Source: Candidatus Tenderia electrophaga
GTDB taxonomy: Bacteria; Pseudomonadota; Gammaproteobacteria; Tenderiales; Tenderiaceae
Reading direction: 5' to 3'
Assembly (NCBI GenBank): GCA_001447805.1
Contig: CP013099.1
Span: 2,427,181-2,491,180, forward strand
DNA: 64,000 bases
The first letter of the stretch is position 1; each line of letters begins with the position of its first letter. Positions 5,887 through 41,177 of this stretch are shown piece by piece. Below the pieces are notes generated by a model. It saw only the letters and a list, made by a program, of their open reading frames with translations, was not told the origin of the DNA and ran no database searches. The position numbers were made by a program, and so were the translations under genes.

Positions 5887-5891
5887 TGCCC

Positions 5892-6074
5892 TTACCTTCT
5901 CTTTGTTCTGGTCGAGTTCGCGAGAACGTACCGCTGATTCCGATCCAAGGTCGGGGGTAACGGTTCGTCCTTTACGACGGTGCGCTCCAGCCCCTTCCCG
6001 CCTTGCGGACAGACAGTCTGGTACTGGCCAGAACGTGGTGCCTTTTCTCCAGGTTTCCAAGGTTTATCGCTCAT
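5892..6074 (-). CDS. YjzC-like small protein heading the CBASS operon
   Basis: A 60-residue protein starting MSDKPWKPGEKAPRSGQY, with LPPT and a YVLANST tail. The pattern KPG..xP.SG.Y...LPPT resembles the YjzC family of small basic proteins of unknown function. GGGAAG lies upstream of the ATG. It is the first gene of the leftward operon; the stop is 5 bp before the patatin start, so translation is probably coupled. I know of no established role for it in CBASS. The frame continues upstream to 6149 but without a ribosome site. Confidence 0.6.
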   Translation of the reverse strand: MSDKPWKPGEKAPRSGQYQTVCPQGGKGLERTVVKDEPLPPTLDRNQRYVLANSTRTKRR

Positions 6075-13993: not shown

Positions 13994-14859
13994 GATATCG
14001 AATGATCGAGCGCTGCCGCGATGCTTTTCCAATTCGTCTGATGTGCCGTTGTCTCAAAGTCTCGTCCAGTGGGTATTATGATTGGCAGGGTCGTGCCCCC
14101 AGCGCCCGCAGCCAGGCGAATGAGCGGTTACTGAAGAAGATACACCGTATTCATGAGGAAAGTGATGGTGTCATGGGGTCACCACGGATCTGGGAAGAAC
14201 TGCGCTATGAAGGCGCCCTGTGCAGTATCAACCGTGTTGCCCGCTTGATGCGGATCAATGGCATACAGGGCATTCCACAGAAGAAACGCTGGCATAGAAA
14301 GGGCGCAACTCACCGACCGATGGGTGTGCAGAATTACCTGCAGCGTGATTTTAATGCGAACGAGCCGAACACCAAGTGGGTCACTGACATTACATTTATT
14401 GAGACAGCCGAAGGCTGGCTCTATCTGAGTGCCGTGAAGGATCTATACTCGGACATGATCGTCGGTTGGTCAATGAGTCATCGTCAGACCCGGGAACTGG
14501 TATTGCAGGCCGTGCTGATGGCGCTGTGGCAACGGGAAGATCGAACACCGGTGATCTTGCATTCGGATCGAGGCTGCCAATTCACCAGTGGGGAGTATCA
14601 GCGCTTTCTGAAGGGTCATAATCTCATCTGTAGCATGAGTGCCGTGGGAACTTGTGCCGATAATGCCTCGATGGAAGGATTCTTCGGAATGCTCAAACGC
14701 GAACGGGTGAATCGGCGCATCTACCAGACACGTGCCGAAGCCAGAGCGGATGTTTTTGACTATATCGAGCGGTTTCATAATCCCAGACGTAGACGACGGC
14801 TTGAAACTTCTAAACAGGACAATTTATGCTTAACTCAACCGTCCGTGGAAACGGGGTAA
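13990..14859 (+). CDS. IS3-family transposase OrfB, DDE integrase
   Basis: A 289-residue protein with an HTH_21 segment (IHRIHEESDGVMGSPRI) and the rve integrase core. The DDE triad is seen: Asp in WVTDITFIE, Asp in LHSDRGCQFTS, and Glu in SMEGFFGMLK, with a downstream K/R. It ends inside the right inverted repeat, as is common. The frame is complete, so the copy may be active or only recently inactive. Confidence 0.92.
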   Translation: MRYRMIERCRDAFPIRLMCRCLKVSSSGYYDWQGRAPSARSQANERLLKKIHRIHEESDGVMGSPRIWEELRYEGALCSINRVARLMRINGIQGIPQKKRWHRKGATHRPMGVQNYLQRDFNANEPNTKWVTDITFIETAEGWLYLSAVKDLYSDMIVGWSMSHRQTRELVLQAVLMALWQREDRTPVILHSDRGCQFTSGEYQRFLKGHNLICSMSAVGTCADNASMEGFFGMLKRERVNRRIYQTRAEARADVFDYIERFHNPRRRRRLETSKQDNLCLTQPSVETG

Positions 14860-16910
14860 AACCCGTCCTCCCCTGATTTATCAAACCCGAGCTTTTCGAA
14901 TACCCGCTGAGCAATGATGCTGTCTGTTAAATACCCTTCCCTTGCATTTTGCACTGCTGCCAGCAACGCACCTCGGAGCAGCAAAATCTGTATAAAATCA
15001 TTAAAATGGCCAGCTTGAAGCGAGGCATCCTGCCTGTTATCGGAGAATCCGAGTAACTTTTTTGCATCCTCTTCCAGATCCGTGTCCCGTTCGAGCATAT
15101 AGCGCAGCGCTGATATCGTAAGCACTGTTGTGGCAGAAGAACGCCCTTCCCCGCTCAGACCGGTGACGCGGTTTGCGTCACGACCTCTGGCCGCATAGGA
15201 GACACCACAGCTTAAACAAAAGCGAAAACTTCCAGGAATAAACCAACCATGCTCTCCATCATGAGAGCAATGCCCGTTAGGCTCGGCGTATGTGCGCTGC
15301 GGGCAATATTTCTTGAAATTGCCTTTTACCCTGTAGTCACCTTTTTTAACCTCCAGCCAGTTTTCCGGATATTTTTCCGGATCAGCATCATCCCACTGCT
15401 GGCCTGAATCGAACATAAAAAAGCCAAAGTTTGTATCCTCATCATCATGGCTGCGCTCGTCGATATCACGAGGACTGATTTCGGTTTCGCCATGCTCACT
15501 AACGTGCCAGACAGGGTAGTACTCCTGACCGCACTGACGACAAAAATGTACGCCGAAGTATTTTTTTTCTCTATTTTCCCCTGGGGCGAATTGTTGCCCA
15601 GTCAAATCGAACTGACGCTTATTCTCCGGTTCTAGTGTTGCGTAGAGTGTATTTGCACCAGAAATAAATTGGTGGAGGCGGAATGCAAACAGGGGTTTGT
15701 TTTTGCTGTCCCGGCATTGATATGCGGTTAAAAGGAACTCCCTCAAATATTCTTCGCACTGTTGCTCATCAAGCCCAGAGTCATTAGCAAGCCGCTTTGC
15801 CGCATCTTTAATTGTCTGCGGCCGGGCTCTGACCCATCGGCCTTCCTCCTTGGCCAGTCCCAAGGACAGTTCTATCCACCCTGATACTGGATGCTCTCTT
15901 AACGCCTTAAAATCTGTATTTGAGGGAAACCCTGATTTGATGGCATCGGCCAGAACGGCTCCGACTGGTTTTCCCGAATGGGGTGTCTGCCGTTGCAGAG
16001 TCTCTGTTACGATGTTTTCCGCTTTAACCTGGGTTCCGAACAGTTTGCTCGCAACCTCGGATACGGCCTCATTTCGCGCCTGCAGAGTCCCTTCACTGGC
16101 CATAGTGGCAGACGTACCAATGCACAGAACATTCGAATTCAGTCTCTCCCGGACGCGCCGCACCAGCATTGCAACATCGGCACCCTGGCGTCCTCGATAG
16201 GTATGCAGCTCATCCAGCACCAAGTACTTGAGCCCCTTGGCTGCTTGCATTACTGTGCGATCGAGATCATCCTGCCGCGTCATTAGAAGTTCCAACATCA
16301 TATAGTTCGTCAATATGATGTCAGGAGGTATCGCAGCCATCATCTGACGTTCTTCCTGGGATTCCTGACCTGTATAGCGGCCATAAGTAACCGGTTTCGA
16401 TTCGCCATAATGCCCGAGGAATTTATCCAGCTCTTCTAACTGGCTGTTAACCAGCGCATTCATCGGATAGATGATGATGGCCTTTATTGCCGGAGATTGG
16501 GTTCCTTTAGACTTCAGGATATGATCGACTATTGGAAGAATGTAACTTAGAGATTTACCAGAACCGGTACCGGTAGTGAGAACATAACTCTCGTCCCGCT
16601 GCGCGATATCTATGGCATCTTGCTGGTGTCTGTGGAGCTGTGCAGAAAACCCTGGATTACTGCCCTCGCGCCCAAATCTGAATATGTCCTGACATGTTGA
16701 ATGCAGCTTTCCTGCATTTACCATTTGCTCGATATTTTGGCCAGACACATATGCAGGATTTAGTTGAACCAACGGTGCTGGCCAGTAATGTCCTGAGTCA
16801 TACCGATTGGTAACAAACTCCCGGATATCGTCAGCTTTTATCTTGGTAAAGCTAGTGGTGAAAGACCTGTAATCGGCAACGATTCTGTCGCGGTATTTGA
16901 AGACGTCCAT
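14835..16910 (-). pseudogene. Large DEAD/DEAH helicase, N-terminal part truncated by IS
   Basis: 691 codons remain; the last eight or nine come from the IS. Walker A is LTTGTGSGKS, the box II region is VLDELHTYRGRQGADVAMLV and motif III is GTSATMA. Two cysteine pairs (CRQCGQEY, CLSCGVSY) suggest a zinc element. This is the N-terminal half of the very large YprA/DruE-like helicases of defence islands, whose full length is well above 1000 residues; helicase motifs IV-VI are largely missing. The start is 2 bp after the HTH gene. Probably inactive. The DruE comparison is from memory. Confidence 0.72.
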
Positions 16911-27240: not shown

Positions 27241-30200
27241 TCACTTCTGTTTGCGTGTCTCCATCCACTCATAGATCACCGGCAGCAGCACCAGAGTCAA
27301 TAACGTGGAGGTGATTAGGCCACCGACCACCACAGCCGCCAGGGGCCGTTGGGTTTCGGCACCGACACCACTGGAAAGCAGCATGGGCACCAGACCGAGA
27401 ATGGCGACGCTGGCGGTCATCATCACCGGCCGCAATCGCATCTCCGCACCTTTACGTACCGCGTCGTAGACGGACAGGCCCTTCTCCCGCAGCTCGTTGA
27501 GAAAGCTCACCAACACGATGCCGTTGAGCATGGCTACACCGAACACGGCAATAAAACCGATCGCCGAGGGCACCGACAGGTACTGGCCGCTGATGAACAG
27601 CGAAACGATGCCGCCGATGGTGGCGAAGGGCACATTGGCGATAATCAAGGTGGCGTACTTGATCGAATTGAATGCTGTGTAGAGCAGTACGAAGATGAAG
27701 AAGATGGTCAACGGCACAATGATCGCCAGCCGCTGCAACGCCCGCTGCTGGTTCTCAAACGCACCGCCCCACTCGATCCAGTAGCCTGGTGGCAGTTCGA
27801 CCTGTGTCTCGATGGCTGCTTCCGCATCCTGGACAAAACTGTCCACGTCGCGGCCACGCACATCCATCTGAATCACGGCGTAACGCTGCAACTGCTCGCG
27901 GCGGATGAAGGAGTAACCCTCCGTCACCGAGACATCGGCTACCTTGTGCAGTGGCACGATGGCGCCGTCGCTACTGCGCAGGGGAATGTCGCGAATGGCA
28001 TCCACCGACATCTTGGCCGCATCGTTCAAACGCACCGTGATATCGAAACGCTTGACGCCATCGATCAGAGTGGAGACCGGCTCGTTGCCGATGCCGGTAC
28101 GCACCACGGTCAACACCTCATCGGCGTTCATTCCGTAGCGCGCCAACTGCTCGCGATTGACCTGGATGCGAATCTGCGGCTTACCCAGGTTAGCCTCCAG
28201 CGACAGGTCAGCCACACCGGGTACCTGGCTGATGGCGTTCTTGACCTGCTGGCTGACGCGATCCAGTTCGTCCAGATCCTGCCCATAGAGCTTGGCCGCC
28301 AGGGTGGCGCGAACGCCGGAGATCAGTTCCTCCACACGCATCTGGATCGGCTGGGTGAAACTGATCACCGCTGTCGGCACTGCCTTTTCCAGCGCCTCGC
28401 GCATCTCATCCACCAGATCGGGCATCTCCCGCTTCGCGTTGGGCCATTCATCGTGGGGATTCAGCTCGGTGTAGATTTCCATGTAGTTGACGTCGGCGGT
28501 CTCACCCTTTTCGGCCCGGCCGATCATGGCGATGGTGGTCTTCACCTCGGGGAAAGCCGTCAGCACCTTAGAAACATCCTTGGAGATGTCGATGGATTGC
28601 TCCAGCGACGTGGAGGGAATCGACACCACCCGCCACATGATGGAGCCTTCCTGCAACTGGGGCATGAACTCCTTGCCCAGCAGCGGGAACAGCGCCAGCG
28701 CCCCAATCAACAACACCACCGCGCCACCTATTACTGTACGCTTATGCGCCAGCGACCAGGCCAGGGTGGGCAGATAGGCCCGCTTCAGCCAGCGCACCAG
28801 CAGGGTATCGCGCTCCTCTTTCGGTTTGAGAATCAGCACCGCCAGCACCGGGATGATGGTTAGTGTCAGCAGCAGTGAACCGGCCATGGCGAAGCTGATG
28901 TTAAAGGCCATGGGCTTGAACAGCTTGCCCTCTAATCCCTCAAGGCTGAACAATGGCAGAAACACCACAATAATGATAAGAATGGCGAAGGCGATGGGAT
29001 TGGCCACCTCTTTGGCCGCCGCCAGCACCGCCGCGCTACGGTTGACCTTTTCACCCTTTTCTCGCCACTCGGCCATAATGCGAAAGGCGTTTTCGGTCAT
29101 GACGATAGCACCGTCGATCATCATGCCGATGCCGATGGCCAAACCCGCCAGCGACATGAGGTTGGCCGACAAGCCCATCTCACCCATGAAGATAAAGGCG
29201 ATCAGCATCGCCAATGGCAACGCGGAAATAACAACAATGGCCGAACGGATCTCACCGAGGAACAGAAATAGCACAATGGCGACCAGGATGGAGCCCTCTA
29301 CCAGGGCCTTTACCGCCGTATTCACGGCCTTATCCACCAGGTCCGTGCGTTCGTAGACCGGGCGCAACGCCACGCCTTCAGGCAGGGCGGACTCGACCAC
29401 ACCGAATTTCTCTTTCACCGCCGCTACCACGTTCTTGGCGTTCTCACCGATACGGGCCAGCGCCATGCCCAGTACAACTTCCTCGCCATCGCGGGTCACC
29501 GCGCCAAAACGCAAGGCCGGTTGCTGGGCAATATCCGCCACGTCACGCAGATAGACCGGCGTGCCCTCTTCCACCTTGACGACAATGTTGCCGATGTCGG
29601 TTTCGTTCTCCACCAACCCCAGTCCACGTACCAGGTACTGCTCCGACCCCTGGTTGATGTACTGACCGCCCACCTGGCCGTTATTGCGCTCGATCACTTC
29701 CATCACTTCACGAAAGCTGAGGTCGTATTCGATCAGGCGTAGTGGATCGATCACCACCTGAAACTGCCGTTCCTCACCACCCCAGGACATGACATCGTCC
29801 ACGCCCGGCGCGGTGCGCAGCATCAGCCGTACCTGCCAATCCTGCAGGCTGCGCAGATCCATCTTGCTGACATCTTCTTCTAACGCTTTATCTGCCCGCT
29901 CCACGGTGTACCAGAAGACCTGACCCAGTCCGGAAGTGTTGGGCCCCATTTCGGGTTTACCATAACCCTCGGGCAAACGGTCGCCGACCTCCTGCAGGCG
30001 CTCCATCACCAGCCGTCGGGCGAAGTAGATATCCATATCATCGGCGAAATAGACCGAGACATAGGAGAGCCCGAACAGACTCACCGAACGGATCTCCTGC
30101 ACGCCGGGCAGACCGGCCATGCCGGATTCCACCGGGAAGGTGAGCAGTTCCTCGACATCCTCGGCCGCCAGACCAGCTGCCTCGGTGTAGATGTTCACCT

Positions 30201-30336
30201 GCACCGGGGTGACGTCGGGGAAGGCGTCGATGGGCACGGTGGTTACCGCTCGCCAGCCGAGAAAGCCCACTACCGCAAAACAGACGATCACCAGAAATTT
30301 ATAGCGTAAAGACGCTTCAACTAAGTTATTTAACAT
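27241..30336 (-). CDS. Heavy-metal RND efflux pump, inner membrane subunit
   Basis: A 1031-residue CusA/CzcA-family transporter. The N-terminal membrane segment, two large periplasmic loops and 12 predicted membrane spans fit RND pumps. The proton relay and family signature are visible in GIGMMIDGAIVMTENAF. It exports metal from the periplasm or cytoplasm through the adaptor (30349) and outer membrane channel (31486). The substrate cannot be fixed from motifs alone; nearby SCO1 and PCu(A)C favour copper or silver, while the ATPase favours zinc, cadmium or lead. Confidence 0.9.
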   Translation of the reverse strand: MLNNLVEASLRYKFLVIVCFAVVGFLGWRAVTTVPIDAFPDVTPVQVNIYTEAAGLAAEDVEELLTFPVESGMAGLPGVQEIRSVSLFGLSYVSVYFADDMDIYFARRLVMERLQEVGDRLPEGYGKPEMGPNTSGLGQVFWYTVERADKALEEDVSKMDLRSLQDWQVRLMLRTAPGVDDVMSWGGEERQFQVVIDPLRLIEYDLSFREVMEVIERNNGQVGGQYINQGSEQYLVRGLGLVENETDIGNIVVKVEEGTPVYLRDVADIAQQPALRFGAVTRDGEEVVLGMALARIGENAKNVVAAVKEKFGVVESALPEGVALRPVYERTDLVDKAVNTAVKALVEGSILVAIVLFLFLGEIRSAIVVISALPLAMLIAFIFMGEMGLSANLMSLAGLAIGIGMMIDGAIVMTENAFRIMAEWREKGEKVNRSAAVLAAAKEVANPIAFAILIIIVVFLPLFSLEGLEGKLFKPMAFNISFAMAGSLLLTLTIIPVLAVLILKPKEERDTLLVRWLKRAYLPTLAWSLAHKRTVIGGAVVLLIGALALFPLLGKEFMPQLQEGSIMWRVVSIPSTSLEQSIDISKDVSKVLTAFPEVKTTIAMIGRAEKGETADVNYMEIYTELNPHDEWPNAKREMPDLVDEMREALEKAVPTAVISFTQPIQMRVEELISGVRATLAAKLYGQDLDELDRVSQQVKNAISQVPGVADLSLEANLGKPQIRIQVNREQLARYGMNADEVLTVVRTGIGNEPVSTLIDGVKRFDITVRLNDAAKMSVDAIRDIPLRSSDGAIVPLHKVADVSVTEGYSFIRREQLQRYAVIQMDVRGRDVDSFVQDAEAAIETQVELPPGYWIEWGGAFENQQRALQRLAIIVPLTIFFIFVLLYTAFNSIKYATLIIANVPFATIGGIVSLFISGQYLSVPSAIGFIAVFGVAMLNGIVLVSFLNELREKGLSVYDAVRKGAEMRLRPVMMTASVAILGLVPMLLSSGVGAETQRPLAAVVVGGLITSTLLTLVLLPVIYEWMETRKQK

Positions 30337-30348
30337 GGTCTCTGCTCC

Positions 30349-31449
30349 TTAATCCGCGTCGCCGATCTGTGATTTCAGTAGCAGTGACTTGAGCACATAG
30401 GCACCCTGTGTCACGATCTCATCACCCTCCGCCAGACCTGCCTTGATCTCGGTCCAGTTACCGCGTGTAGCACCGCGCTCCACCGGCGCGGGATGGATCT
30501 CATCACCCTCCGTTTTGAAGACCACATAATCTCCCTGGACTAGCAATACCGACTCTTTGGGTACGGCGAGCACCGGCTTACCGGCGACAATCTGAATGGC
30601 GCTCTTGACGAACTGGCCGGGGCGCAGACGACCGTCACGCGAGTCCAACTCGATACGCACCGCCAACGTGCGGGTCGTCTTGTCCATGAGGCGATGGATC
30701 TGCACGACCTTGCCGGACAACCAGCGGCGTTCATCACTGCTCACACGGGCCGGACTGCCCACCTCAATGCCAGCGGCCATCTCCGCCGCCAGCTGCGCCT
30801 CCACCCAGAGGCGAGACTCGTCGCTAACCTCCATCAGCACCCGGCCCGGCTCCACCACGCGGCCGATCACAAAGTCGTCGCTGAGCACCGTGCCTTCCTG
30901 CGGGCTGAGCAGGTCGAAAGACCCTGTCGCCTTGGAGACGTCGCCCTCTTCCAGCAAGGCCACCACCTGAGCTTCGGTCATGCCAAACGCCAGTACTTTG
31001 GCATAGGCCTGCTGGCGGGCCACTTCGGCCTCTACATAACGCTTTTCCGCCACCACCTGGCGACCCAGTTCCTGAACCCGGCTCCACTCCCGGTCGGCCA
31101 TCAACAATTGGCCCTGGGCTTCGGCCATCTCGACACTGGAGAGGGTGACCAACTTCTGACCCTTTTTCACCTGCTGCCCCATGCGGGCGTGGCGCTGGGT
31201 GATCTGGGCGGTGATGCGCGGCGTTACCTCAGCCGTGTGATAGCGGTTGACCGTCACCTCAGCGGGGGCGATCACCTCGTCGGCCATCAACTGCGTGCCA
31301 ACTATCTGAGTGAGAATCCCCATGGATTGACGTTGCTCTACCGTCATGGGCGGGATGCCGCCCTCTTCTTCCTCATGCTCTTCTTCAGCAAAGGCCGGGG
31401 CACTGCCCAGCAGGCAGAGAATAAGGAACCGGTTAATCAATTTGTTCAT
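30349..31449 (-). CDS. Heavy-metal RND efflux periplasmic adaptor
   Basis: A 366-residue membrane-fusion protein of the CusB/CzcB type. A signal peptide (ends at PAFAEEE) is followed by an acidic His-containing stretch (EEEHEEEEGG) that may bind metal. Lipoyl-like halves flank a helical hairpin (ITQRHARMGQQVKKGQKLVTL, then GTVLSDDFVIGRVVEPGRVL). It links the inner membrane pump to the outer membrane channel. 12 bp separate it from the pump gene. Confidence 0.88.
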   Translation of the reverse strand: MNKLINRFLILCLLGSAPAFAEEEHEEEEGGIPPMTVEQRQSMGILTQIVGTQLMADEVIAPAEVTVNRYHTAEVTPRITAQITQRHARMGQQVKKGQKLVTLSSVEMAEAQGQLLMADREWSRVQELGRQVVAEKRYVEAEVARQQAYAKVLAFGMTEAQVVALLEEGDVSKATGSFDLLSPQEGTVLSDDFVIGRVVEPGRVLMEVSDESRLWVEAQLAAEMAAGIEVGSPARVSSDERRWLSGKVVQIHRLMDKTTRTLAVRIELDSRDGRLRPGQFVKSAIQIVAGKPVLAVPKESVLLVQGDYVVFKTEGDEIHPAPVERGATRGNWTEIKAGLAEGDEIVTQGAYVLKSLLLKSQIGDAD

Positions 31450-31485
31450 AATGCGTTTCTCCGAAAAATGTATGGGGGAATGAAA

Positions 31486-32715
31486 TCAGTCGTTCAGTCC
31501 CAACCAGGATTCTGTTTTGCCACTGGCCGCGAGCCATTCAAACCACGCCTGCCACAGGCTGCCGCGCAATTCGGCGGCAGCGGTGCGGGTATCCAGCGTC
31601 TGCTTGAGTTGCACCAGGTAATCAGAGGTGCTGAGTTCACCCGCTTGCCACAGGCGCTCCAAAAGTTGAGTCTGGCTCTCCAGACTGGTCTGCCCGGTTT
31701 GCAGCCAGTCGTCCCAGGCCTGACGGCTTAGTTCGAAACGTTGCGCGGCCGAGACCAAGCGGGCGCGGCTGTGGCGATAACTGTCCTGGGCGCTCTGCTC
31801 GATCTGAATGGCGTCAGCACTGGCCGCCTCCACCTCGGCGCTGAAGTTGTTGCGCACGAACAGCGGGATAGAGAGGGTCAGACCGATCAGGTTGTCCGAT
31901 GCATCGCGGCCGCCACGAACGCCAATGGTGGGATCGGCCCGGCGCTCACGGCGGGATAACTCCACATCCGCGCGGGCGGTGGCAAATTGGGTTCGGATGA
32001 CGCGCAGCGCGGGCAACTGTTCGAGCAAGTCATCAATATTTTTCGTATCAAGCCGCGAAGCAGATGGAATCTCAGGCAACACGGGCCACCCCTCTGATCC
32101 TGCATCGGCAACCGCCATCAGCGCCTGCTCCGCCTGCGCCTGCAGTCCCACCAAGCGAACCCGTTGCAGGTTGGCCTCGGTCGCGGCCAGCCTGGCCAGA
32201 TCCAGCTCCACCTGCCCCAAGTCGCCTGCCTGGCGGCGCTGCTCGCTCAAGGCGAGAAAGCGCTGCATCAGGGTACGACGTTGCTCGGCCAGCGCCGTCA
32301 ATTCGCTCGCGGTGTGATAATCGGCCAGGGCATCTAGCAGTTCTGTTGCCAGTGCCTGGCGCACACCCGCCAATTCGGCGACAACACGCTCACGCTCAAG
32401 CGCCGCCACGCGAGTGCGGGCTTCCCGCTTGTCGGCCCAGTCGATGGTCTGGCTGAGCCCCAAGGTCTTGGTGACATCGCCGGTGTCCTCATAATCAATG
32501 TCAAGATCCGGGTTGTAGAGCGGCTGGTCGGCCGCTGTTTCGCGGGCCGTTGCCGCGTCCAGTGCGGATCGTGCAGCCAAAACACGCGGGTTGTCATCCA
32601 GTACAGTGCGAACCAAGGCTGTCAACGTCGGTTGATCGGCCGCGTTTACCGCCCCAAAAGGCAATATCAAAATACAGCCGAGCAGCGCGGCTGGCGTGAA
32701 TAATCGTGTTCTCAT
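31486..32715 (-). CDS. TolC-family outer membrane channel of metal efflux
   Basis: 409 residues from the ATG at 32715, chosen because a signal peptide (MRTRLFTPAALLGCILILPFGAVNAA) begins there and AAGGA lies upstream; the frame is open to 32928 but overlaps the next gene. The long helical repeats with LYNPDLDIDYEDTG and LSQTIDWADKREAR fit the CzcC/CusC outer membrane factors. It forms the outer channel of the tripartite pump. Confidence 0.87.
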   Translation of the reverse strand: MRTRLFTPAALLGCILILPFGAVNAADQPTLTALVRTVLDDNPRVLAARSALDAATARETAADQPLYNPDLDIDYEDTGDVTKTLGLSQTIDWADKREARTRVAALERERVVAELAGVRQALATELLDALADYHTASELTALAEQRRTLMQRFLALSEQRRQAGDLGQVELDLARLAATEANLQRVRLVGLQAQAEQALMAVADAGSEGWPVLPEIPSASRLDTKNIDDLLEQLPALRVIRTQFATARADVELSRRERRADPTIGVRGGRDASDNLIGLTLSIPLFVRNNFSAEVEAASADAIQIEQSAQDSYRHSRARLVSAAQRFELSRQAWDDWLQTGQTSLESQTQLLERLWQAGELSTSDYLVQLKQTLDTRTAAAELRGSLWQAWFEWLAASGKTESWLGLND

Positions 32716-32783
32716 CGGTGAATCCTTGCTAGTAAAATCAGTACAACAAGCGAAGCGGAGCCTAAAAGCCCCCATGCAAACAT

Positions 32784-33095
32784 TCAGATTTGGGGAGGTC
32801 GAAAGGGGGGAGTTTGGTCCAGGGAGTGATAAGAAAGGTTTGTCCGCACCACGTCCTGGCGGGTGAATGGAAAATAATCTAACTTGGTTTCGGGGGCAAT
32901 GGCGACAAGATGAAGCCAACCGGCACAAAACTCGTCACAAACGCCATCGTTCAGGCCATCGCCGGACAGATCACCCGACTGGGCCAGCACAGACTCATCG
33001 CTGCCATAAGGCGAAAAACAGTCGTCCATCGCCCACGCCACATTGGTGACAAGCACGGAAAAAATCAGCAGGTGGGTAATGATTCGACGCATCAC
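32784..33095 (-). CDS. Small secreted Cys/His protein of metal operon
   Basis: A 103-residue protein with a signal peptide (MMRRIITHLLIFSVLVTNVAWA). The mature part has DDCFSPY and CDEFCAGWLHLVAI, a cysteine-rich motif also seen in small proteins preceding CzcC genes. It may bind metal in the periplasm. I cannot give a named family with certainty. It lies between the DUF302 gene and the outer membrane channel in the same operon. Confidence 0.65.
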   Translation of the reverse strand: MMRRIITHLLIFSVLVTNVAWAMDDCFSPYGSDESVLAQSGDLSGDGLNDGVCDEFCAGWLHLVAIAPETKLDYFPFTRQDVVRTNLSYHSLDQTPPFRPPQI

Positions 33096-33513: not shown

Positions 33514-34215
33514 CTAATCATGTTGTTGTACGTCAGTGCCATCCCCAGCCTTCTGGACCGGCAAAGGATTGACTGCCAGCGTCGCAGGGACTAAATCATC
33601 GACAATGAATGACTGGCGAAAGTTCTCGAAACCGGCTTCCCCGAGTTCGTTTAACAGACCGTGATCCAGAAAATCCCAGGCCGTGGGATTCTCGAGCAAC
33701 ATCAACAGTCGAAACACAGCATAGCGGAACTTGCCACCAGGCCGGTAAATATCCACCACCAGCAGGCGTCCGCCGGGCTTGAGCACCCGGCGAATCTCGC
33801 GCAAGGTATTGCAGCGGGCGGCGCGAGGCATCTCGTGCAGCACATAAGTCGCCGTCACTGCATCGAAATAACCATCGGGAAAGTTAATGGCTTCGATGCT
33901 CTGTTGATAAAACTTCAGTTGCGGCAACAGCGCCTTGCGCCGTGCTCGTTCGATCATCCGGGGCGATAGATCGATCCCGACAATCTCTCCCGACGTGCCG
34001 ACCTTTTGCGCCATCAGAACGGCGAGCGTCCCCGTCCCGCACCCCACATCCAGCACTCGCTCACCCGGACTCAGACCCGCCTGCTCGACCATGTCTCGGC
34101 GCACCTGATGTTCTCCACCGACGGCCCGGCCCAGAAGGCGCATCAGTGGATCGTAGCAGAGCGCGAGCCGGTTGCACGCCTCGCGGTAGTATCCCGATGT
34201 CGGTCTTGTATTCAC
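33514..34215 (-). CDS. Class I SAM-dependent methyltransferase in metal operon
   Basis: A 233-residue protein with motif I VLDVGCGTGTLAVLMA, acidic motif II in IVGIDLSPRMIERA and post-I FDAVTATYVLHEMP, all typical of UbiE/COQ5-like small-molecule methyltransferases. In metal operons such enzymes sometimes methylate a metalloid, but it lacks the cysteine pattern of ArsM, so the substrate is unknown. Two or three bases separate it from the P-type ATPase gene; the operon is tight. Confidence 0.8.
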   Translation of the reverse strand: MNTRPTSGYYREACNRLALCYDPLMRLLGRAVGGEHQVRRDMVEQAGLSPGERVLDVGCGTGTLAVLMAQKVGTSGEIVGIDLSPRMIERARRKALLPQLKFYQQSIEAINFPDGYFDAVTATYVLHEMPRAARCNTLREIRRVLKPGGRLLVVDIYRPGGKFRYAVFRLLMLLENPTAWDFLDHGLLNELGEAGFENFRQSFIVDDLVPATLAVNPLPVQKAGDGTDVQQHD

Positions 34216-34218
34216 GTG

Positions 34219-36132
34219 CTAGGCCTTCAGCATCCGCAAACCACTGGCGATGACCACGAATTCGCTCACTTCGTGGGCGATGACTGCAACCGGCAACGAA
34301 AACGTCCCGGCCACTGCGCCGACAATCAGAGTGCCGATGACCACCACGGACAGTGCCAAGTTCTGGCGGATCACACTCCAGTTGCGGTGGCTGAAGCGGA
34401 CGAGATACGGCAACCTTGAGAGATCGTCGGCCATCAGCGCCACATCTGCCGTCTCCAGGGCCACGTCGGTACCGGCCGCACCCATGGCGATACCCACATG
34501 GGCCGCCGCCAACGCCGGGGCGTCGTTGACACCGTCGCCAACCATGACCACCCTGCCGTACTGTTTGTCTAGTTCTTCTACCTTACGAGTCTTGTCTTCC
34601 GGTTTGAGCTCGGCAAACACCTCGTCGATACCCGCCTGTTGAGCGATGGCTTGGGCGGCCAGAGGATTGTCACCGGTCAACATGATGACTTTGTGGATAC
34701 CGGCACGCTTGAGTCCGGCGATGGCCTCGCGGGCCTCGGGCCGTAACGGGTCGGCGATGGCGACAAGGCCGTGAACGGCCGTTTTCGTACCTACCAGCAC
34801 CACCGTCTTGCCTTCACACTGCAAGGATTCTATCCGTCCCTTAGCGCTATCGAGGTCGGCATCAAAGTCCGCGAACAACCTGGGACTACCAATATAGACC
34901 GTTTCATCGTCGATCCTGCCCTTCGCCCCGGCACCCGTGAGTGAAGTAAAATCTTCCGCCGCTTGTGGCCTGAGTCCTTCGCTTTCGGCCCGGTCGAGGA
35001 TGGCACGAGCGAGGGGGTGTTGGGAACGCAGCTCCAGTGCCGCCGCTACTGAAAGCACGCCGGTTTCATTGTGTCCGGTCAAAGGCACAATGTCTGTGAC
35101 TTGGGGCCGGCCAACAGTCAGGGTGCCGGTCTTATCCAGAGCCACGACGCGGACCTTGGCCAGATTCTCCAGGTGTACTCCGCCTTTTATGAGGATGCCG
35201 TTACGCCCGGCGGTGCCGATGGCCGCTACCAGCGTGATCGGAATGGAGATGACCAGGGCGCAGGGCGCGGCGGCGACGATGAAGACGGTGGCACGGGTGA
35301 GCCATTCTTCCCATCCCATGCCGAGCAATCCCGGAACGAGTGCGAGCAGGATGCCCACCCCCAGCACCGCCGGGCTGTAGCGTTTACCGAAGCGCTCGAT
35401 AAAGCGCTGGCTCTTACCCTTGCTGGCCTGGGCCTCCTCCACCAGTTGGATGATGCGCGCCAGGGTATTATCGGCTATGGTCTTTGTGACCCGCACGGTG
35501 AGCGCGCCTTCGCCATTGAGTGTCGCGGCGAACACGGTATCGCCCATCACTTTTTCCACCGGTACGGATTCGCCGGTGACCGGGGCCTGGTTGAGACTGG
35601 AGCGGCCGTCGATGATCTCGCCGTCGGTTGCTACCGCCTCACCGGGATGGACAATAAACACATCGCCGACCCGGAGCGCTTCCACTGGAATGCGCATCTC
35701 CTTGCCGTCGCGCACCACCAAAGCGGTTTTGGGGGCCAGATCCATCAGCGCGCGAATGGCGTGACGGGTACGCTCCTCCGTGTAACCCTCGGCCGCCTCG
35801 GAGATGGAATAGAGGAACACTAGCATGGCGGCCTCCGCCCACTGGCCCATGAGCCCGGCAACCACGGCCGCCACGCTCATCAACAGCTCGATGCCAATCG
35901 CCCGTTCCTTAACCAGTTCCTCGATCGCCTCGCGACCGAAAAACCAGCCGCCGATGATTACCGCCAAAATATAGAGGCCGGTCTCGGGCAGCGGCGGCAA
36001 CCCCAGCTTGGCACCGAAAAAACCAATGACCAACAACAGACCGGAGAGCGCCGAAGTCACCACCTGGGGATTGCGCCAGGGTGGTGGCATGGGTTTGCCT
36101 TCGGCGACTGCCGTGCAACTCGGGCAGGCCAT
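34219..36132 (-). CDS. P1B-type heavy-metal ATPase with APC motif
   Basis: A 637-residue ATPase. Phosphorylation site DKTGTLTVG, ATP-binding HP-type loop SQHPLARAIL, hinge MLTGDNPLAAQAIA and GDGVNDAPALAAAHVGIAMG are all present. The metal site in transmembrane helix 6 reads AAAPCALVISIP, i.e. APC rather than CPC. There is no full HMA domain; the N-terminus is MACPSCTAV, which might bind metal. Export of Zn, Cd, Pb or Co is possible. Its ATG shares one base with the stop of the ArsR gene, so the two are coupled. Confidence 0.88.
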   Translation of the reverse strand: MACPSCTAVAEGKPMPPPWRNPQVVTSALSGLLLVIGFFGAKLGLPPLPETGLYILAVIIGGWFFGREAIEELVKERAIGIELLMSVAAVVAGLMGQWAEAAMLVFLYSISEAAEGYTEERTRHAIRALMDLAPKTALVVRDGKEMRIPVEALRVGDVFIVHPGEAVATDGEIIDGRSSLNQAPVTGESVPVEKVMGDTVFAATLNGEGALTVRVTKTIADNTLARIIQLVEEAQASKGKSQRFIERFGKRYSPAVLGVGILLALVPGLLGMGWEEWLTRATVFIVAAAPCALVISIPITLVAAIGTAGRNGILIKGGVHLENLAKVRVVALDKTGTLTVGRPQVTDIVPLTGHNETGVLSVAAALELRSQHPLARAILDRAESEGLRPQAAEDFTSLTGAGAKGRIDDETVYIGSPRLFADFDADLDSAKGRIESLQCEGKTVVLVGTKTAVHGLVAIADPLRPEAREAIAGLKRAGIHKVIMLTGDNPLAAQAIAQQAGIDEVFAELKPEDKTRKVEELDKQYGRVVMVGDGVNDAPALAAAHVGIAMGAAGTDVALETADVALMADDLSRLPYLVRFSHRNWSVIRQNLALSVVVIGTLIVGAVAGTFSLPVAVIAHEVSEFVVIASGLRMLKA

Positions 36133-36536
36133 CAGCGCGCTTCCTCTGTCTTGAATTCGTCAGACTGGATACCGACCCGGCAACGGCCGCCTTCGCGCAG
36201 GCAAAGGCGTTCGCGGAAACGTTTTAAGTCAGCGTTGTAGATGCCTTCCGGGTCAGGCAACGCCCTTACAGTGGCGTATAGCGTCTCCAGGTAGGACGGT
36301 TCCAACACCAACCGGTGATAGACCCAACGCCCCTCTTTTTGAGATGACAGCAGCCCCGCCTGACGCAGAATCTTCAAGTGACGGGAAAGTTTGTATGACG
36401 GCTCCAGCAGGCTATCCACCAGCTCACACAGGCATGACTCTTCAGCGGTCGCCACCATCAAACGGATGATCCGCAGCCGGGTCTCGTCGGCCAGCGACTG
36501 AAAAATCTTTTCGGGTTGAATAGTAATTGAATGCAT
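36132..36536 (-). CDS. ArsR-family metal-sensing repressor of the efflux operon
   Basis: About 134 residues from the ATG at 36536. It has a winged helix (IFQSLADETRLRIIRLMV, then SYKLSRHLKILRQAGLLSSQ) and a Cys pair in ESCLCELVDSL at the alpha-3 metal site, plus C-terminal cysteines (RLCLREGGRCRV). It should release DNA on metal binding. The start at 36536 is favoured over 36554 because the promoter -10 at 36543-36548 would put transcription at or near this ATG; the message would be leaderless. Confidence 0.85.
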   Translation of the reverse strand: MHSITIQPEKIFQSLADETRLRIIRLMVATAEESCLCELVDSLLEPSYKLSRHLKILRQAGLLSSQKEGRWVYHRLVLEPSYLETLYATVRALPDPEGIYNADLKRFRERLCLREGGRCRVGIQSDEFKTEEAR

Positions 36537-36571
36537 AGTTGCACTATAATGCAACTATTGATCTCTATCAA
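36535..36571 (-). promoter_or_regulatory. Promoter and palindromic operator of the metal-efflux operon
   Basis: On the minus strand, -35 TTGATA (36566-36571), a 17-bp spacer and -10 TATAGT (36543-36548). A perfect 9-bp inverted repeat, ATAGTTGCA and TGCAACTAT with 6 bp between (36535-36558), covers the -10 and reaches the ATG. This is where the ArsR protein should bind. Confidence 0.78.
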
Positions 36572-36857: not shown

Positions 36858-37589
36858 TTAGGCTGACCATAAAACATACACACCCACGCCCAGCAGCAAC
36901 AGCCCGGAGATCGTTCGCAAGCCCCGCTGACGGCGGGGTGTGGCTAGCCACGGTTGTAGGCGTTCGTAACCATGCCCGATTAACAGCAGCGGCAGTCCAG
37001 TGCCCAGCCCGTAAATGAACATCAACAGGCCGCCCCAAACCAGATCACCCTGCATGGCGACCAGAGTGAGGATGCCGAGCAAGATGGGGGTGGCACAGGG
37101 CGCAATGGCCAGCGAGAAGAGGAAACCGGCACCGAAGGCGGTGAGTGCATGCGGGAGTTGATTGGCGTCGATGTCATGTAGCCTTTGGCTATGCCAGACG
37201 GGTAGACGCAATGGAAACAGGCCGAGCATAGAGAGCCCCATAAAGATGGGCACCAGCGCCAGCAGCATCTGAAATAGCGGATCAAAGCGACCAAACACCC
37301 AGCCCAGGCCCGCAGTGAGCAGACCCATGACGGCCGTTGCTGCTGCCATGCCGAGGACAAACACTAACGCAATACGCGTCTGGATGACACCGGCCGGTAT
37401 TTGCCCGGTTTTATCCTTAGCCGCCGTTGTTTGACAGCAGCTGCACCCCATGAAGCCGAACACCGCCGGGTACATGGGCAGGCAACAAGGATTGAAAGCT
37501 GTCAGCAATCCACCGGCCACCACTAACGGCAGTGCCAGCAATGAGCCATTGGCCAGATACGGTGACAACCAGGCGGCAAAGGCATCCAC
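36858..37589 (-). CDS. CcdA/DsbD-type thiol transport membrane protein (first copy)
   Basis: A 243-residue protein with six or so membrane spans. The two conserved Cys are in FNPCCLPMYP and IAPCATPILLG, the reactive pair that carries electrons across the membrane. CcdA passes reductant from cytoplasmic thioredoxin to periplasmic thiol proteins. It also has CSCC in a loop. It follows the thioredoxin-like gene by 5 bp and ends the leftward unit. It converges on the SHOCT gene. Confidence 0.85.
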   Translation of the reverse strand: MDAFAAWLSPYLANGSLLALPLVVAGGLLTAFNPCCLPMYPAVFGFMGCSCCQTTAAKDKTGQIPAGVIQTRIALVFVLGMAAATAVMGLLTAGLGWVFGRFDPLFQMLLALVPIFMGLSMLGLFPLRLPVWHSQRLHDIDANQLPHALTAFGAGFLFSLAIAPCATPILLGILTLVAMQGDLVWGGLLMFIYGLGTGLPLLLIGHGYERLQPWLATPRRQRGLRTISGLLLLGVGVYVLWSA

Positions 37590-37594
37590 AATGC

Positions 37595-37990
37595 TTACTT
37601 CAACAACAGTTGTTCGGCCTGTGCCAGGGCCTGTGCAAGCTGCTCCTGCACTGCCTGGCTTTCACCGACAATTTTGCCCCGTTCGTTACCTTGACTGTCG
37701 ATGAATACGACAGCGGGCAGAAAGCGTATCTGATAACGTTCGATCAGCGGGTTATCCGGGCTCCAGTCGGTCTGAATCACCTCGATGCGCCCCTGATAAC
37801 GCTGCTCGGCTTGCTCAACCAAACGATGAATTGCCTGGCAACTGGGGCTATTGTCACCACGAATCAGGACAATGGCCGGACCATCGGGTGACGTGATCTG
37901 TGCGATTTGGGTTTCGCTCGCTGTCGGCCATAGCTTGATGCCTAACACACCGAGCAACACCGCGATGACCACTATGCCTGCTGTTCTCAT
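37595..37990 (-). CDS. Thioredoxin-like membrane-anchored protein with one Cys
   Basis: A 131-residue protein with an N-terminal anchor (IVVIAVLLGVLGIKLW) and a thioredoxin fold (AIVLIRGDNSPSCQAI, then RYQIRFLPAVVFIDSQG). At the active site the usual CxxC reads SPSC: only the second cysteine is present. It probably works with the adjacent CcdA. With one cysteine it could reduce or trap glutathionylated or metal-bound thiols, or be a non-redox protein. Confidence 0.75.
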   Translation of the reverse strand: MRTAGIVVIAVLLGVLGIKLWPTASETQIAQITSPDGPAIVLIRGDNSPSCQAIHRLVEQAEQRYQGRIEVIQTDWSPDNPLIERYQIRFLPAVVFIDSQGNERGKIVGESQAVQEQLAQALAQAEQLLLK

Positions 37991-38012: not shown

Positions 38013-39158
38013 TTAACGACAGCCGCAGCCCGATGAACAGGTTTGAAGGCTTGCCTGCTCAATCTCACCGGGCGCTTGATCCTGCACATACTTTTCTCCG
38101 CTTTTCAGCGCCTGTTCCGCCCGCGCCAGTTCGCGGCCCAGATAGGCTGCGTGATCCAGGCGGCTAATCAGCCCCTCGTTGATCACCGTGACATAAAGCG
38201 CTGCGGGGGACTGTGCGGCGAACATCCGATCCAACACACCCTGATTGGTGTAATGCTCCAGCATCAGTTGATTGGCACGCCGGTCGGGGTAAACCACAAA
38301 ATAGCCCGCGGGATCGAGCGTCAGCTTCGTTGGCGCTGCTGCAGCCTCGATTGGAATGGGCAAGATATCCTCGGGCGCTCCGGCAAAGGGGCCGGGATTG
38401 TTGGCCGCCGCTTCCGAGATTTTTTTCAATACAGTGGGAATGTCGGTTTTGCCGATACACTCCACGAGCTGTACCTGCCGCCGAAAGGCCTCGACATGTT
38501 TGACATCCAGATTTTTAAGCAGTGGCCGCTTCCCGTTGGCCCCGATGATACGCATTTTCTCATTCACACCGTGATGGAACAGGCTGATTAGTGACTGGCC
38601 GGGCAGATGGCCGATGGCCTTTTGCGTATCTTCACCACAAAGCACAAGAAAACGGATGTGTGGATTGGCAAGCGTGTTGCGGATGAGGTGTTCAATGCCG
38701 AGATTTTCCGTGTGCAGCGTGCCGACCAGCGATAGATCCTCGACACCGCTGGCCACCAGCTCGGCAACCAGATGGTCGGAGTTCAAGGTGCAAACAGCGA
38801 CAGGGGCCTGCATCCGCACCACCTGATAATCTCCAGGCAGCGGCGGCCAGCCTTCGCGCAGTTCAGGTGCTTCGGTGGCGCAATGACCACCCTCGGCGAC
38901 GGCCGGATCGAGTTCGGCCGCCAGATTCTGCGCCACGGCAGGCCAACACACCTCACAGCCCAGGCAGTCGTAGCGCTTCGGTTCGAACAGCGTGCGGGCC
39001 TCTTTCAGCAGTGAAGCCAAATCGGCCTGGATAACCGCTGAGTCTTGTAACGTATCGATGGTGTCCTGAAAGCAACCACAGCGCCAACACTTTTTTGCCG
39101 CCATGGCCTGACGAAGTTCCTCTTCGATCCGGTTCAATGTTGAGGGTGATTCCGTCAT
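38013..39158 (-). CDS. MtrA-like protein (methyltransferase subunit A fold) with Cys-rich ends
   Basis: 381 residues from the ATG at 39158, which overlaps the SMR stop by 4 bp. Residues about 110-260 resemble tetrahydromethanopterin S-methyltransferase subunit A, including a PVAVCTL strand, TENLGIEHLIRNTLANPHIRFLVLCGED and a GQ..I.LF.HGVN.. .RIIGANG core. A C-terminal DUF4346-like part follows. The N-terminus has CWRCGC and CLGCEVCW; the C-terminus ends CSSGCGCR. A corrinoid-binding or metal-binding role is possible. Such a gene in a bacterial resistance cluster is unusual; function is unknown. Confidence 0.72.
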   Translation of the reverse strand: MTESPSTLNRIEEELRQAMAAKKCWRCGCFQDTIDTLQDSAVIQADLASLLKEARTLFEPKRYDCLGCEVCWPAVAQNLAAELDPAVAEGGHCATEAPELREGWPPLPGDYQVVRMQAPVAVCTLNSDHLVAELVASGVEDLSLVGTLHTENLGIEHLIRNTLANPHIRFLVLCGEDTQKAIGHLPGQSLISLFHHGVNEKMRIIGANGKRPLLKNLDVKHVEAFRRQVQLVECIGKTDIPTVLKKISEAAANNPGPFAGAPEDILPIPIEAAAAPTKLTLDPAGYFVVYPDRRANQLMLEHYTNQGVLDRMFAAQSPAALYVTVINEGLISRLDHAAYLGRELARAEQALKSGEKYVQDQAPGEIEQASLQTCSSGCGCR

Positions 39159-39508
39159 GCCCCATGCCCTCCCGCTGCGAGATTCAACATAACAATCCCC
39201 AGCACGATCAACATGACGCCAATCCCTTTCCAAAGGCCCGCCCGTTCCTTCAGCATGAGTATGCCCAGCAGTGCTACACCCGCCGTGCCGCCACCGGCCC
39301 AGACCGGATAGACGGTGCTGACCGGTAAATTGACTAGGGCTAGGCTGACAAGATAAAACGCCGATCCAAACGCAGCGAGCGCCAAAACCGCTGGCAACGG
39401 CTTGGTGAAGCCGTTGCTGAAACGCAAGGCGAGTGCGGCGGTGATTTCAGCGATGACCGCCAACCCAACCAGTAGCCACGCGTATGAAGTTTCAATCAGG
39501 CCGCCCAT
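39155..39508 (-). CDS. SMR-family small multidrug exporter, subunit 1
   Basis: A 117-residue four-helix protein. The catalytic Glu is in LAVIAEITAALALRFS, equivalent to Glu14 of EmrE, and the SMR signature YPVWAGGGTAGVALLG is present. SMR proteins exchange protons for toxic cations. It lies 3 bp after a second SMR gene, as in heterodimeric pairs. The downstream MtrA-like gene overlaps its stop, so all three are one unit. Confidence 0.88.
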   Translation of the reverse strand: MGGLIETSYAWLLVGLAVIAEITAALALRFSNGFTKPLPAVLALAAFGSAFYLVSLALVNLPVSTVYPVWAGGGTAGVALLGILMLKERAGLWKGIGVMLIVLGIVMLNLAAGGHGA

Positions 39509-39511
39509 ACA

Positions 39512-39871
39512 TCAACACCCTGATTTCTTATCGGAGGTCATATTCACCAGAATGACGCCACCGATGACCAAAAGAACGCCCACGATTTTTATTGCGCTGA
39601 TTGCTTCGCCCAACACCAGAACCCCTAACAAAGCGACCCCCGCCGTTCCACCGCCTGCCCATACGGGATAAGCCACGCTGACTGGCAATGTTTTCATCAC
39701 ATGACTGACAAGGTAGAGCGCCAGCGTAAAAGCAAGCAGTGCAAGTACGGTGGGCAGCAACAAGGTGAAACCCGCACTGAAGCGCAGACCCAATACACCG
39801 GCAATTTCGAGACAGACCGCCAAGCCCAACAGCAGCCAAGCCGTGGAAGATGTTGATTCGGTGCTATCCAT
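39512..39871 (-). CDS. SMR-family small multidrug exporter, subunit 2
   Basis: A 119-residue four-helix protein, with the Glu in LAVCLEIAGVLGLRFS and the same YPVWAGGGTAGVALLG motif as its neighbour. It is first in the leftward unit. A 22-bp operator-like site (39907-39928) lies just upstream and matches a site by the ArsR gene. The two SMRs differ by many residues, suggesting an obligate hetero-oligomer rather than a recent duplication. Confidence 0.88.
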   Translation of the reverse strand: MDSTESTSSTAWLLLGLAVCLEIAGVLGLRFSAGFTLLLPTVLALLAFTLALYLVSHVMKTLPVSVAYPVWAGGGTAGVALLGVLVLGEAISAIKIVGVLLVIGGVILVNMTSDKKSGC

Positions 39872-39906: not shown

Positions 39907-39928
39907 CATTATCGAAAACATCGAAATG
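39907..39928 (-). promoter_or_regulatory. ArsR operator copy 1, before SMR operon
   Basis: On the minus strand, a 22-bp site with core TTCGATGTTTTCGATAATG. It matches the site at 40345-40366 at 20 of 22 positions. It sits 36 bp upstream of the SMR start, suitable for repression. Binding by the 39946 gene product is inferred. Confidence 0.7.
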
Positions 39929-39945: not shown

Positions 39946-40347
39946 TCAGCCGAGGCGCTTTTCCATCATCGCTAGGTCACCCTGCAGTGCTTTCAACAGG
40001 TCATCCACTTTGAGGTGATAATAGACCATCTTGCCGTCATCCCGTTTGCCCAGCCAACCCTGATCGCGCAGCAACTTCAATTGATGAGAAGTAGCCGCGA
40101 CGCTCAGCCCCAAAACATGGGCGATATCACAAACACATAGTTCTCCCTCCGCCAGGGCCAGCAGAATCTTCAAGCGTCTAGGATTTCCCAGGAGTTTGTA
40201 GAACTCCGCCAGTTGCGGCAGACGCTCCTCATCTTCGGCCAATCGAGCCTTAACCGCAGCCACTTTGTCCTGGTCAAAACACGGGACTTTGCAGACTTCG
40301 TCCTGACTGACTAGAGGAGATACTTTTTTCATAAATTCGCCATTCAT
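39946..40347 (-). CDS. CadC/CmtR-like ArsR-family metal sensor
   Basis: A 133-residue repressor. The N-terminus holds VCKVPC and the recognition region has GELCVCDIAHVLGLSVAATSHQLKLLR, i.e. the paired cysteine sites of CadC-type (alpha-3N) sensors of Cd, Pb and Zn. On metal binding it should leave DNA. An alternative start at 40332 (MKKVS...) avoids overlap with the operator. It lies between the SMR operon and a divergent CcdA gene, each behind a matching operator. Confidence 0.87.
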   Translation of the reverse strand: MNGEFMKKVSPLVSQDEVCKVPCFDQDKVAAVKARLAEDEERLPQLAEFYKLLGNPRRLKILLALAEGELCVCDIAHVLGLSVAATSHQLKLLRDQGWLGKRDDGKMVYYHLKVDDLLKALQGDLAMMEKRLG

Positions 40348-40366
40348 TTCGATATTTTCGAAAATG
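40345..40366 (+). promoter_or_regulatory. ArsR operator copy 2, between ArsR and CcdA genes
   Basis: A 22-bp site with core TTCGATATTTTCGAAAATG, 20 of 22 identical to the copy at 39907-39928. It lies at the ArsR start and 73 bp before the divergent CcdA start, fitting autoregulation and CcdA control. Confidence 0.7.
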
Positions 40367-40439: not shown

Positions 40440-41177
40440 ATGAGTCCAGCCGATATCACCATCCCCCTGGCCCTTTTCGCCGGTGCATTATCGTTTTTCT
40501 CACCGTGCGTTCTACCCTTAGTACCGGTCTACCTCAGTTACCTGTCAGGCAGCTCACTGGAAGAGCAGAATGAGGAGGAGCGCGTTGGCCGCTGGCATGT
40601 ATTCAGCCATGCCCTGTTTTTTGTTGGTGGATTCACCTTGATATTCGTACTGCTGTTCGGCCTGCCGGCGACACTGCTCGGTAACGCGCTGTACCACTAT
40701 AACGATCTCATCGCCCAGGCTGGAGGTGTGTTGGTGATCATCTTCGGTGTTCATACCCTGGGATGGATCAACATCCCGTTTTTAAATATGACCAAACAAC
40801 TACAGGCCGGGCATAACATGGCACCAGGCTACACCCGCTCGGGATTGATCGGTATGGCCTTCGGTGCAGGCTGGACACCCTGTATAGGGCCACTGCTGGG
40901 CACAGTGATGACCATGGCCGCTAGTCAACCCTCACAAGGGGTGCTCTATACGCTGATCTACGCCTCGGGCCTGGCACTGCCCTTCCTGATAACAGCGCTG
41001 CTATTTTCACGTGCCACCGGGCAGTTGCGCCGCCTCAATCGGCACGCCCATATCGTGCAAAAAGTGAGCGGTGGCTTTTTGGTGGCGATTGGCCTGCTGT
41101 TGGTAAGCGGTCAGCTTGCTTCGCTCAATACGTTCTTTATTCAGTTCACGCCTGATTGGTTGGTGGAACATTTGTAA
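40440..41177 (+). CDS. ccdA: CcdA-type thiol transport membrane protein (second copy)
   Basis: A 245-residue protein with six membrane spans. Reactive cysteines are in FFSPCVLPLVPVYLSYLSG and AGWTPCIGP, the classical CcdA layout. It moves electrons to the periplasm for cytochrome c maturation or periplasmic thiol repair. It is divergent from the ArsR gene and shares its operator. It is closer to standard CcdA than the copy at 36858-37589, so the two probably have different partners. Confidence 0.88.
   Translation: MSPADITIPLALFAGALSFFSPCVLPLVPVYLSYLSGSSLEEQNEEERVGRWHVFSHALFFVGGFTLIFVLLFGLPATLLGNALYHYNDLIAQAGGVLVIIFGVHTLGWINIPFLNMTKQLQAGHNMAPGYTRSGLIGMAFGAGWTPCIGPLLGTVMTMAASQPSQGVLYTLIYASGLALPFLITALLFSRATGQLRRLNRHAHIVQKVSGGFLVAIGLLLVSGQLASLNTFFIQFTPDWLVEHL

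Follow-up and report, generated by a model that had tools for sequence, protein, structure and literature searches.

The described systems closest to the locus considered here are methanogen MtrA, HgcAB, and the cad, pbr and mer operons. A C-terminal membrane anchor is the mark of complex-bound MtrA, cytosolic MtrA homologues being without it, and we know of no corrinoid protein in the described cad, pbr or mer systems. In M. fervidus MtrA the cobalamin is contacted by Tyr18, Thr53, Glu54, Asn55, Gly57, Val61, Asn64 and the Co ligand His84, and the motif GAIPF-Y/F-xEN of methanogen MtrA is thought to be part of conformational coupling (PMC4915002). HgcAB acts on mercury by means of a corrinoid domain, Fe-S clusters and a Cys tail (PMC7305189), the methyl group coming from SAM (PMC11588087).

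Here we describe a bacterial relative of MtrA with Cys-rich ends (the MtrA/Cys protein), encoded in a window of 64,000 nucleotides from Candidatus Tenderia electrophaga, by which we mean the whole stretch of DNA that was analysed. This relative has become a constant part of mobile gene sets that are apparently switched on by toxic metals such as Cd, Pb or Hg, and it hints at a little-known role of B12 in metal detoxification.

The operon, its regulator and its surroundings

The MtrA gene is an ORF of 381 aa with an ATG start. It and its neighbours in the window are as follows.

34219-36554 (-): neighbouring unit of a Cd-family P1B-ATPase (34219-36132) and its own ArsR regulator (36132-36554)
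36858-37589 (-): CcdA/DsbD-TM protein, at the end of the operon
37595-37990 (-): membrane-anchored Trx-like protein with a single conserved Cys (SPSC replacing CxxC)
38013-39158 (-): MtrA-DUF4346 protein with Cys-rich ends, the core gene
39155-39508 (-): SMRb, a small multidrug resistance-type exporter subunit (Pfam)
39512-39871 (-): SMRa, an SMR subunit that has a C-terminal Cys and another two positions ahead of the membrane Glu
39907-39925 (-): predicted CadC-type operator copy before SMRa, with 2 mismatches to TTCGATATTTTCGAAAATG
39946-40347 (-): CadC-type ArsR/SmtB repressor (C-x3-C plus ELCVCD)
40348-40366 (no strand): predicted CadC-type operator copy TTCGATATTTTCGAAAATG immediately upstream of the regulator, within the promoter region from which CadC and CcdA1 diverge
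40440-41177 (+): second CcdA-type protein, divergent from CadC and sharing its operator region

The ATG of the MtrA gene overlaps the SMRb stop, which fits translational coupling of the two genes. SMRa and SMRb match Multi_Drug_Res (PF00893; 8e-22 and 4.5e-21) and are paired subunits; the membrane Glu is present in all 11 aligned SMR proteins, the Cys two residues ahead of it in five of five SMRa relatives, and a C-terminal SGC in four. In the Trx-like protein the first Cys of CxxC is lost in all nine relatives (SPSC, SPNC, SADC or SGNC), eight of which have a CcdA gene following them. The odd cysteines of the Trx-like protein and SMRa would be compatible with thiol-metal chemistry, as a fit rather than a proof.

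The regulator of the window and 13 close homologues all carry, in the alignment, the N-terminal C-x3-C and the ELCVCD Cys pair, which we take to be the alpha3N soft-metal site, as in S. aureus CadC. All 21 matches to TTCGATATTTTCGAAAATG (at most 4 mismatches) in 14 homologous loci lie within 120 bp of the regulator gene; these zones cover 9.2 kb of the 187 kb across the 14 loci, and 0.08 matches are expected in them by chance, as estimated from resampled sequence. Judged by its letters, the putative operator is a real, conserved motif.

The preliminary description had seen an MtrA core with Cys-rich ends, coupled to a paired SMR exporter and followed by a Trx-like protein and CcdA, all behind an ArsR operator, and had pointed to the mix of corrinoid-type fold, thiol redox and export. 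These observations hold: the core and the three Cys motifs are present, together with a DUF4346 domain that had gone unmentioned; there are two SMR genes, with the overlap given above; the Trx-like and CcdA genes follow; the ArsR/SmtB gene is flanked by two operator copies; and all parts of the mix are supported.

Directly behind the gene of the Cd-family P1B-ATPase lies that of a UbiE-like SAM methyltransferase (33514-34215, -), a possible methyl donor. An RND efflux system (pump, CusB/HlyD-type membrane fusion and outer membrane factor; 27241-32928, -) lies close to the locus as well, and the whole region is therefore likely to be a larger island of metal resistance. As its flanks carry homologues of TrbI, TraC and AcaB, the window looks like a conjugative element. 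The same window contains a defence island with a CBASS-type nucleotide cyclase and phospholipase effector, a NERD/helicase gene and a DruE-like SNF2 gene (3677-6060, 11566-13308 and 14835-16910, all on the minus strand).

Domains and predicted cobalamin site of the MtrA/Cys protein

In the MtrA/Cys protein an N-terminal Cys region of about 100 residues is followed by the MtrA domain, a PterinBD-DUF4346 domain and a Cys tail; PF04208 and PF14251 are the only Pfam domains detected. The parts of the protein map to the window as follows.

38865-39158 (-): N-terminal Cys domain, residues 1-98, with CxxCxC (24/27/29), CxxCxxCxP (65/68/71) and C93
38376-38858 (-): MtrA corrinoid-binding domain, residues 101-261, with E151 and H184 (Pfam, 1.8e-40)
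38607-38609 (-): codon of His184, the equivalent of the Co-ligating His84 of MtrA
38079-38318 (-): PterinBD-DUF4346 domain, residues 281-360 (Pfam, 2.2e-24)
38016-38039 (-): Cys-rich C-terminal tail CSSGCGCR (from the sequence)

The Cys motifs are CWRCGC (residues 24-29), CLGCEVCW (65-72) and CSSGCGCR (374-381). Among 14 aligned N-domains C24, C27, C29, C65, C68 and C71 are invariant, and with C93 all seven N-terminal cysteines are nearly invariant among relatives; the C-terminal tail varies, mostly with Cys. The homologue from Planococcus plasmids (L025 / L027) has several ACGC-type Cys repeats between the Cys domain and the MtrA domain. A search of PDB for sequence relatives of the N-terminal Cys domain at E<=10 found none. 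The DUF4346 domain, which is as conserved as the remainder of the protein, was modelled alone with a pLDDT of 91; its best fold match was to ribosomal proteins (Z 6.3, weak) and no Foldseek match below 0.001 was found. Since the fold matches are weak only, no function can be read from this domain.

Among solved structures, the nearest by sequence are those of MtrA proteins (E about 1e-32). Seven of the eight side-chain contacts of M. fervidus MtrA are kept in the alignment, Val61 being replaced by Leu: Tyr18, Thr53, Glu54, Asn55, Gly57, Asn64 and His84 correspond, in a mapping based on sequence alignments, to Y111, T150, E151, N152, G154, N161 and H184, all of them unchanged across 23 homologues that span Pseudomonadota, Chloroflexota and Bacillota. 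The AlphaFold2 model of the protein has a mean pLDDT of 72 (66-94 in the MtrA part, in blocks of ten over most of its length), and its residues 106-260 superpose on cobalamin-bound 5LAA with Z 22.1 and 2.0 A over 148 residues. Residues 361-381 are polar, with a pLDDT under 50, and form no membrane anchor. The consensus GAIPF-Y/F-xEN is replaced by GKRPxLKN in the MtrA/Cys family. The corrinoid domain as such is well supported; the alignment and the model give good support to a predicted corrinoid pocket, and the protein presumably binds cobalamin. Structure prediction had been suggested in the preliminary description as a check on this pocket, and the superposition leaves it standing.

Against the NCBIfam model NF002128, whose cut-off is 568 bits, the window protein scores 548 bits (positions 11-386 of 390) and the homologue from Dechloromonas, a close relative, 572.6, so that the latter alone passes.

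Distribution of the gene and exchange of its partners

The MtrA/Cys gene is rare and accessory. Counting the source genome, it occurs in six genomes out of 369 in the class (in two of the six as the form without the Cys domain) and in two out of 398 in the phylum; phages, IMG/VR viral contigs and E. coli genomes gave no match. MetH is present in 15 of 16 carriers and CobS in five, including the source genome, so B12 is in use in the carriers. A search for MtrH (PF02007) in the same 16 genomes found none, the weak match in the source genome lying within MetH, and the only clear DUF4346 protein in each of them is the MtrA/Cys protein itself.

Neighbourhoods were counted in 24 distinct loci with the Cys-domain form, the window among them; in one (L002) the upstream end is a contig edge. 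A CadC-type gene lies upstream in the same direction in 15 of the 24 loci, and in two Chloroflexota loci it is nearby on the opposite strand. Two loci (L016, L026) have a divergent MerR-family gene matching CadR-PbrR (TIGR02047; 2e-41 and 1e-43, just below the cut-off). On the Planococcus plasmids an ArsR gene, a gene for a small protein annotated as cation transporter and a P1B-ATPase gene precede the MtrA gene; merA is upstream in L014, and merR, merT, merC and merA adjoin CadC-MtrA in L012. P1B-ATPases occur near L014, L019 and L027, and no metal gene was found nearby in L013 and L017. The association of the gene with metal resistance is well supported, and the CadC alpha3N-type and CadR/PbrR-type regulators, as classified from their sequences, point to soft metals (Cd/Pb/Hg) and away from drugs. 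Drug resistance as the main role was rejected on the grounds of regulator types and exchangeable metal exporters; of the metal or drug resistance named in the preliminary description, the metal half stands, the operon being metal-regulated, and the drug half falls.

Two distant relatives (L029, 6006-6869; L028, in G311) are MtrA-DUF4346 proteins without the Cys domain. That of L029 adjoins a pyridine-nucleotide-disulphide (SQR-like) oxidoreductase and a DsrE protein, a sulfur-redox context, so the ancestral role may not concern metals.

The exporter genes differ between loci. SMR genes accompany the MtrA gene in six of the 24 loci: a pair lies between CadC and the MtrA gene in the window, L005, L007, L009 and L011, and a single subunit is left in L002. 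In eight loci (L003, L004, L006, L008, L010, L020, L032 and L035) the same place is taken by a MerC-family gene (Pfam 6e-11), L032 having in addition an outer-membrane factor and a CusA/CzcA-family RND pump (subfamily model below its cut-off); a MacB-like ABC set is found in L007, L012, L015 and L002. On a maximum-likelihood tree the well-supported branches force at least three SMR changes with the MtrA gene retained. Since the MtrA gene persists where SMR pairs appear and disappear, the MtrA/Cys protein, and not any one pump, is the constant element. The tie to SMR genes that the preliminary description had emphasised is thus real but not defining: co-occurrence is confirmed, and the SMR pair is one of several interchangeable exporters. 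Conversely, a Vibrio plasmid has a CadC-SMR-SMR set without the MtrA gene, beside a P1B-ATPase (P-type), and pWW0 has an SMR pair near cadR and merB.

A trio of a SAM methyltransferase, a Met-rich 90-aa protein and an uncharacterised 150-aa protein recurs in L009 (7422-8776) and L032 (1-1190). Other possible methyl donors are the SAM methyltransferases near the MtrA gene in L009, L032 and L035; a fixed partner of this kind was rejected, as a common one lies near these three loci only.

Proposed role, alternatives and known systems

We propose that the MtrA/Cys protein is a soluble accessory corrinoid protein of soft-metal (Cd/Pb/Hg) resistance whose most likely activity would be methyl transfer to or from thiol-bound metal, and give this reading a probability of about 0.4. 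CadC would sense Cd(II)/Pb(II)-like ions, possibly also Hg or Bi, at its four-Cys site and let go of the two operators, so that the exporter, the MtrA-like protein and the Trx-like/CcdA pair would be produced together. The MtrA domain would bind cobalamin base-off, His184 being the lower ligand, backed by Glu151; the N-terminal domain, which has two conserved Cys triplets, could either hold an Fe-S cluster that reduces cobalt or present thiol-bound metal, and the Cys tail would pass the metal onward. The most likely reaction would be methyl exchange between cobalt and metal, the ion being methylated (as by HgcAB with Hg) or an organometal being dealkylated, and the product would be removed by whichever exporter is present. 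Methyl exchange is the simplest reading that uses all conserved parts; within it we infer the identity of the metal, the methyl chemistry, its direction and donor, and the Fe-S or metal role of the Cys domain. The more specific proposal of a B12-dependent detoxification enzyme, unrelated in fold to HgcAB, inducible, methylating or dealkylating Cd, Pb or Hg in bacteria that are not strict anaerobes, and spread as a module with exchangeable exporters, is put forward tentatively.

Several observations weigh against the proposed role. No constant methyl-donor partner was found in the operons, and no cobalamin riboswitch or other Rfam match was found near MtrA/Cys loci. P1B-ATPases and RND pumps normally handle free ions, so export needs no chemical conversion. 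Methylmercury is more toxic than Hg(II) and, to our knowledge, methylation has not been established as a way of resisting Cd or Pb. Conversion before export, as the preliminary description had proposed, is possible, and the idea is weakened by the Vibrio set without the MtrA gene.

The main rival is a metal chaperone or buffer, whose Cys-rich ends would bind cytosolic Cd/Pb/Hg and pass them to the exporter, with the corrinoid domain as a scaffold or a redox or sensing aid and no methyl transfer; we regard this as possible though doubtful. It would account for the near-invariant CxxCxC/CxxCxxC motifs and the Cys tails, for the additional Cys repeats of the Planococcus homologue, whose gene adjoins P1B-ATPase and ArsR genes, for the exchange of ion exporters between loci and for exporter sets without the MtrA gene. 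If the domain were a mere scaffold, however, there would be little reason for the cobalamin contacts, among them the Co-ligating His and its Glu, to stay unchanged all the way from Bacillota to Chloroflexota, and the DUF4346 domain is no less conserved than the remainder, which also speaks against a chaperone. Dealkylation only, in which cob(I)alamin would remove the alkyl group from organolead, organotin or organomercury and the exporter would clear the freed ion, is unlikely: SMR pumps do export lipophilic cations, mer genes lie beside L012 and L014, and some of the MerC-family genes of the eight loci match models named organomercurial transporter, but merB was not found in the MtrA-gene loci examined, the regulators are of the inorganic Cd/Pb type, and organolead and organotin are mostly man-made whereas the family is widespread.

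Somewhat more improbable is a metal-tolerant corrinoid stand-in of one-carbon metabolism, which would keep up methyl flow (methionine/SAM) under Cd/Pb/Hg poisoning of the thiol and zinc enzymes that surround MetH. The carriers possess MetH, DUF4346 also ends the dihydropteroate-synthase-like family TIGR00284, and methanogen MtrA has been predicted to be the methyl donor to core methionine synthases (PMC7857596); on the other hand, MtrH is absent, there is essentially no second DUF4346 protein, the operons contain no methionine synthase gene, and the constant partners are metal sensors, exporters and thiol-redox proteins. That the protein is a true subunit of the Mtr complex, correctly annotated as tetrahydromethanopterin S-methyltransferase subunit A, is highly improbable, and this candidate was rejected. 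NF002128, which bears this name, does span the full length of the protein, and the Dechloromonas member passes its cut-off, but the 16 carriers are without MtrH, and the absence of this partner already refutes membership for the source genome; moreover, the membrane anchor is missing, the meander motif is changed and 100 additional N-terminal residues carry the Cys triplets. The name was evidently carried over from methanogen MtrA and is at odds with the genomic context.

Literature searches on DUF4346, or combining the MtrA name with metal resistance, gave nothing of use, and among the papers searched none dealt with a role of the family in metal resistance. The sequence family is already modelled at NCBI (NF002128), and there is a real chance that its members are metal-detoxification enzymes of a new type. 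If confirmed, a corrinoid component that is constant and induced by metals would give genetics direct access to the long-standing question of whether, and for what reason, these bacteria form or cleave methyl-metal bonds; it would also bear on the environmental cycling of mercury, lead and cadmium. The locus also suggests that a bacterial gene annotated as tetrahydromethanopterin S-methyltransferase subunit A can in fact be one for metal resistance, and surveys of methane metabolism could be led astray by such a wrong name.

With MtrA (PF04208; PDB 5LAA, 5L8X) the window protein has in common the Rossmann-type corrinoid fold and contacts including His84/Glu54, but it is without the Mtr partners and the anchor, has a different meander motif, and adds the Cys domain, DUF4346, the Cys tail and a metal-regulated operon. 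NF002128 (PRK00964.1-6) is a full-length model that matches its architecture, the window protein falling below the cut-off. The likeness to HgcAB, a corrinoid protein with a Cys/Fe-S module and a Cys tail acting on a soft metal, is a functional analogy only: the CFeSP-type corrinoid domain of HgcA is absent and an MtrA-type domain is present instead, the two CxxCxxCxxxCP ferredoxin motifs of HgcB are absent and one CxxCxxCxP and one CxxCxC are found, and the window protein differs further in its single chain instead of two, its unrelated corrinoid binding mode, the lack of a membrane domain and its metal-responsive repressors. The cad (CadC/CadA), pbr/CadR and mer operons share with the MtrA/Cys loci the kinds of sensor, exporter and MerC-family transporter.
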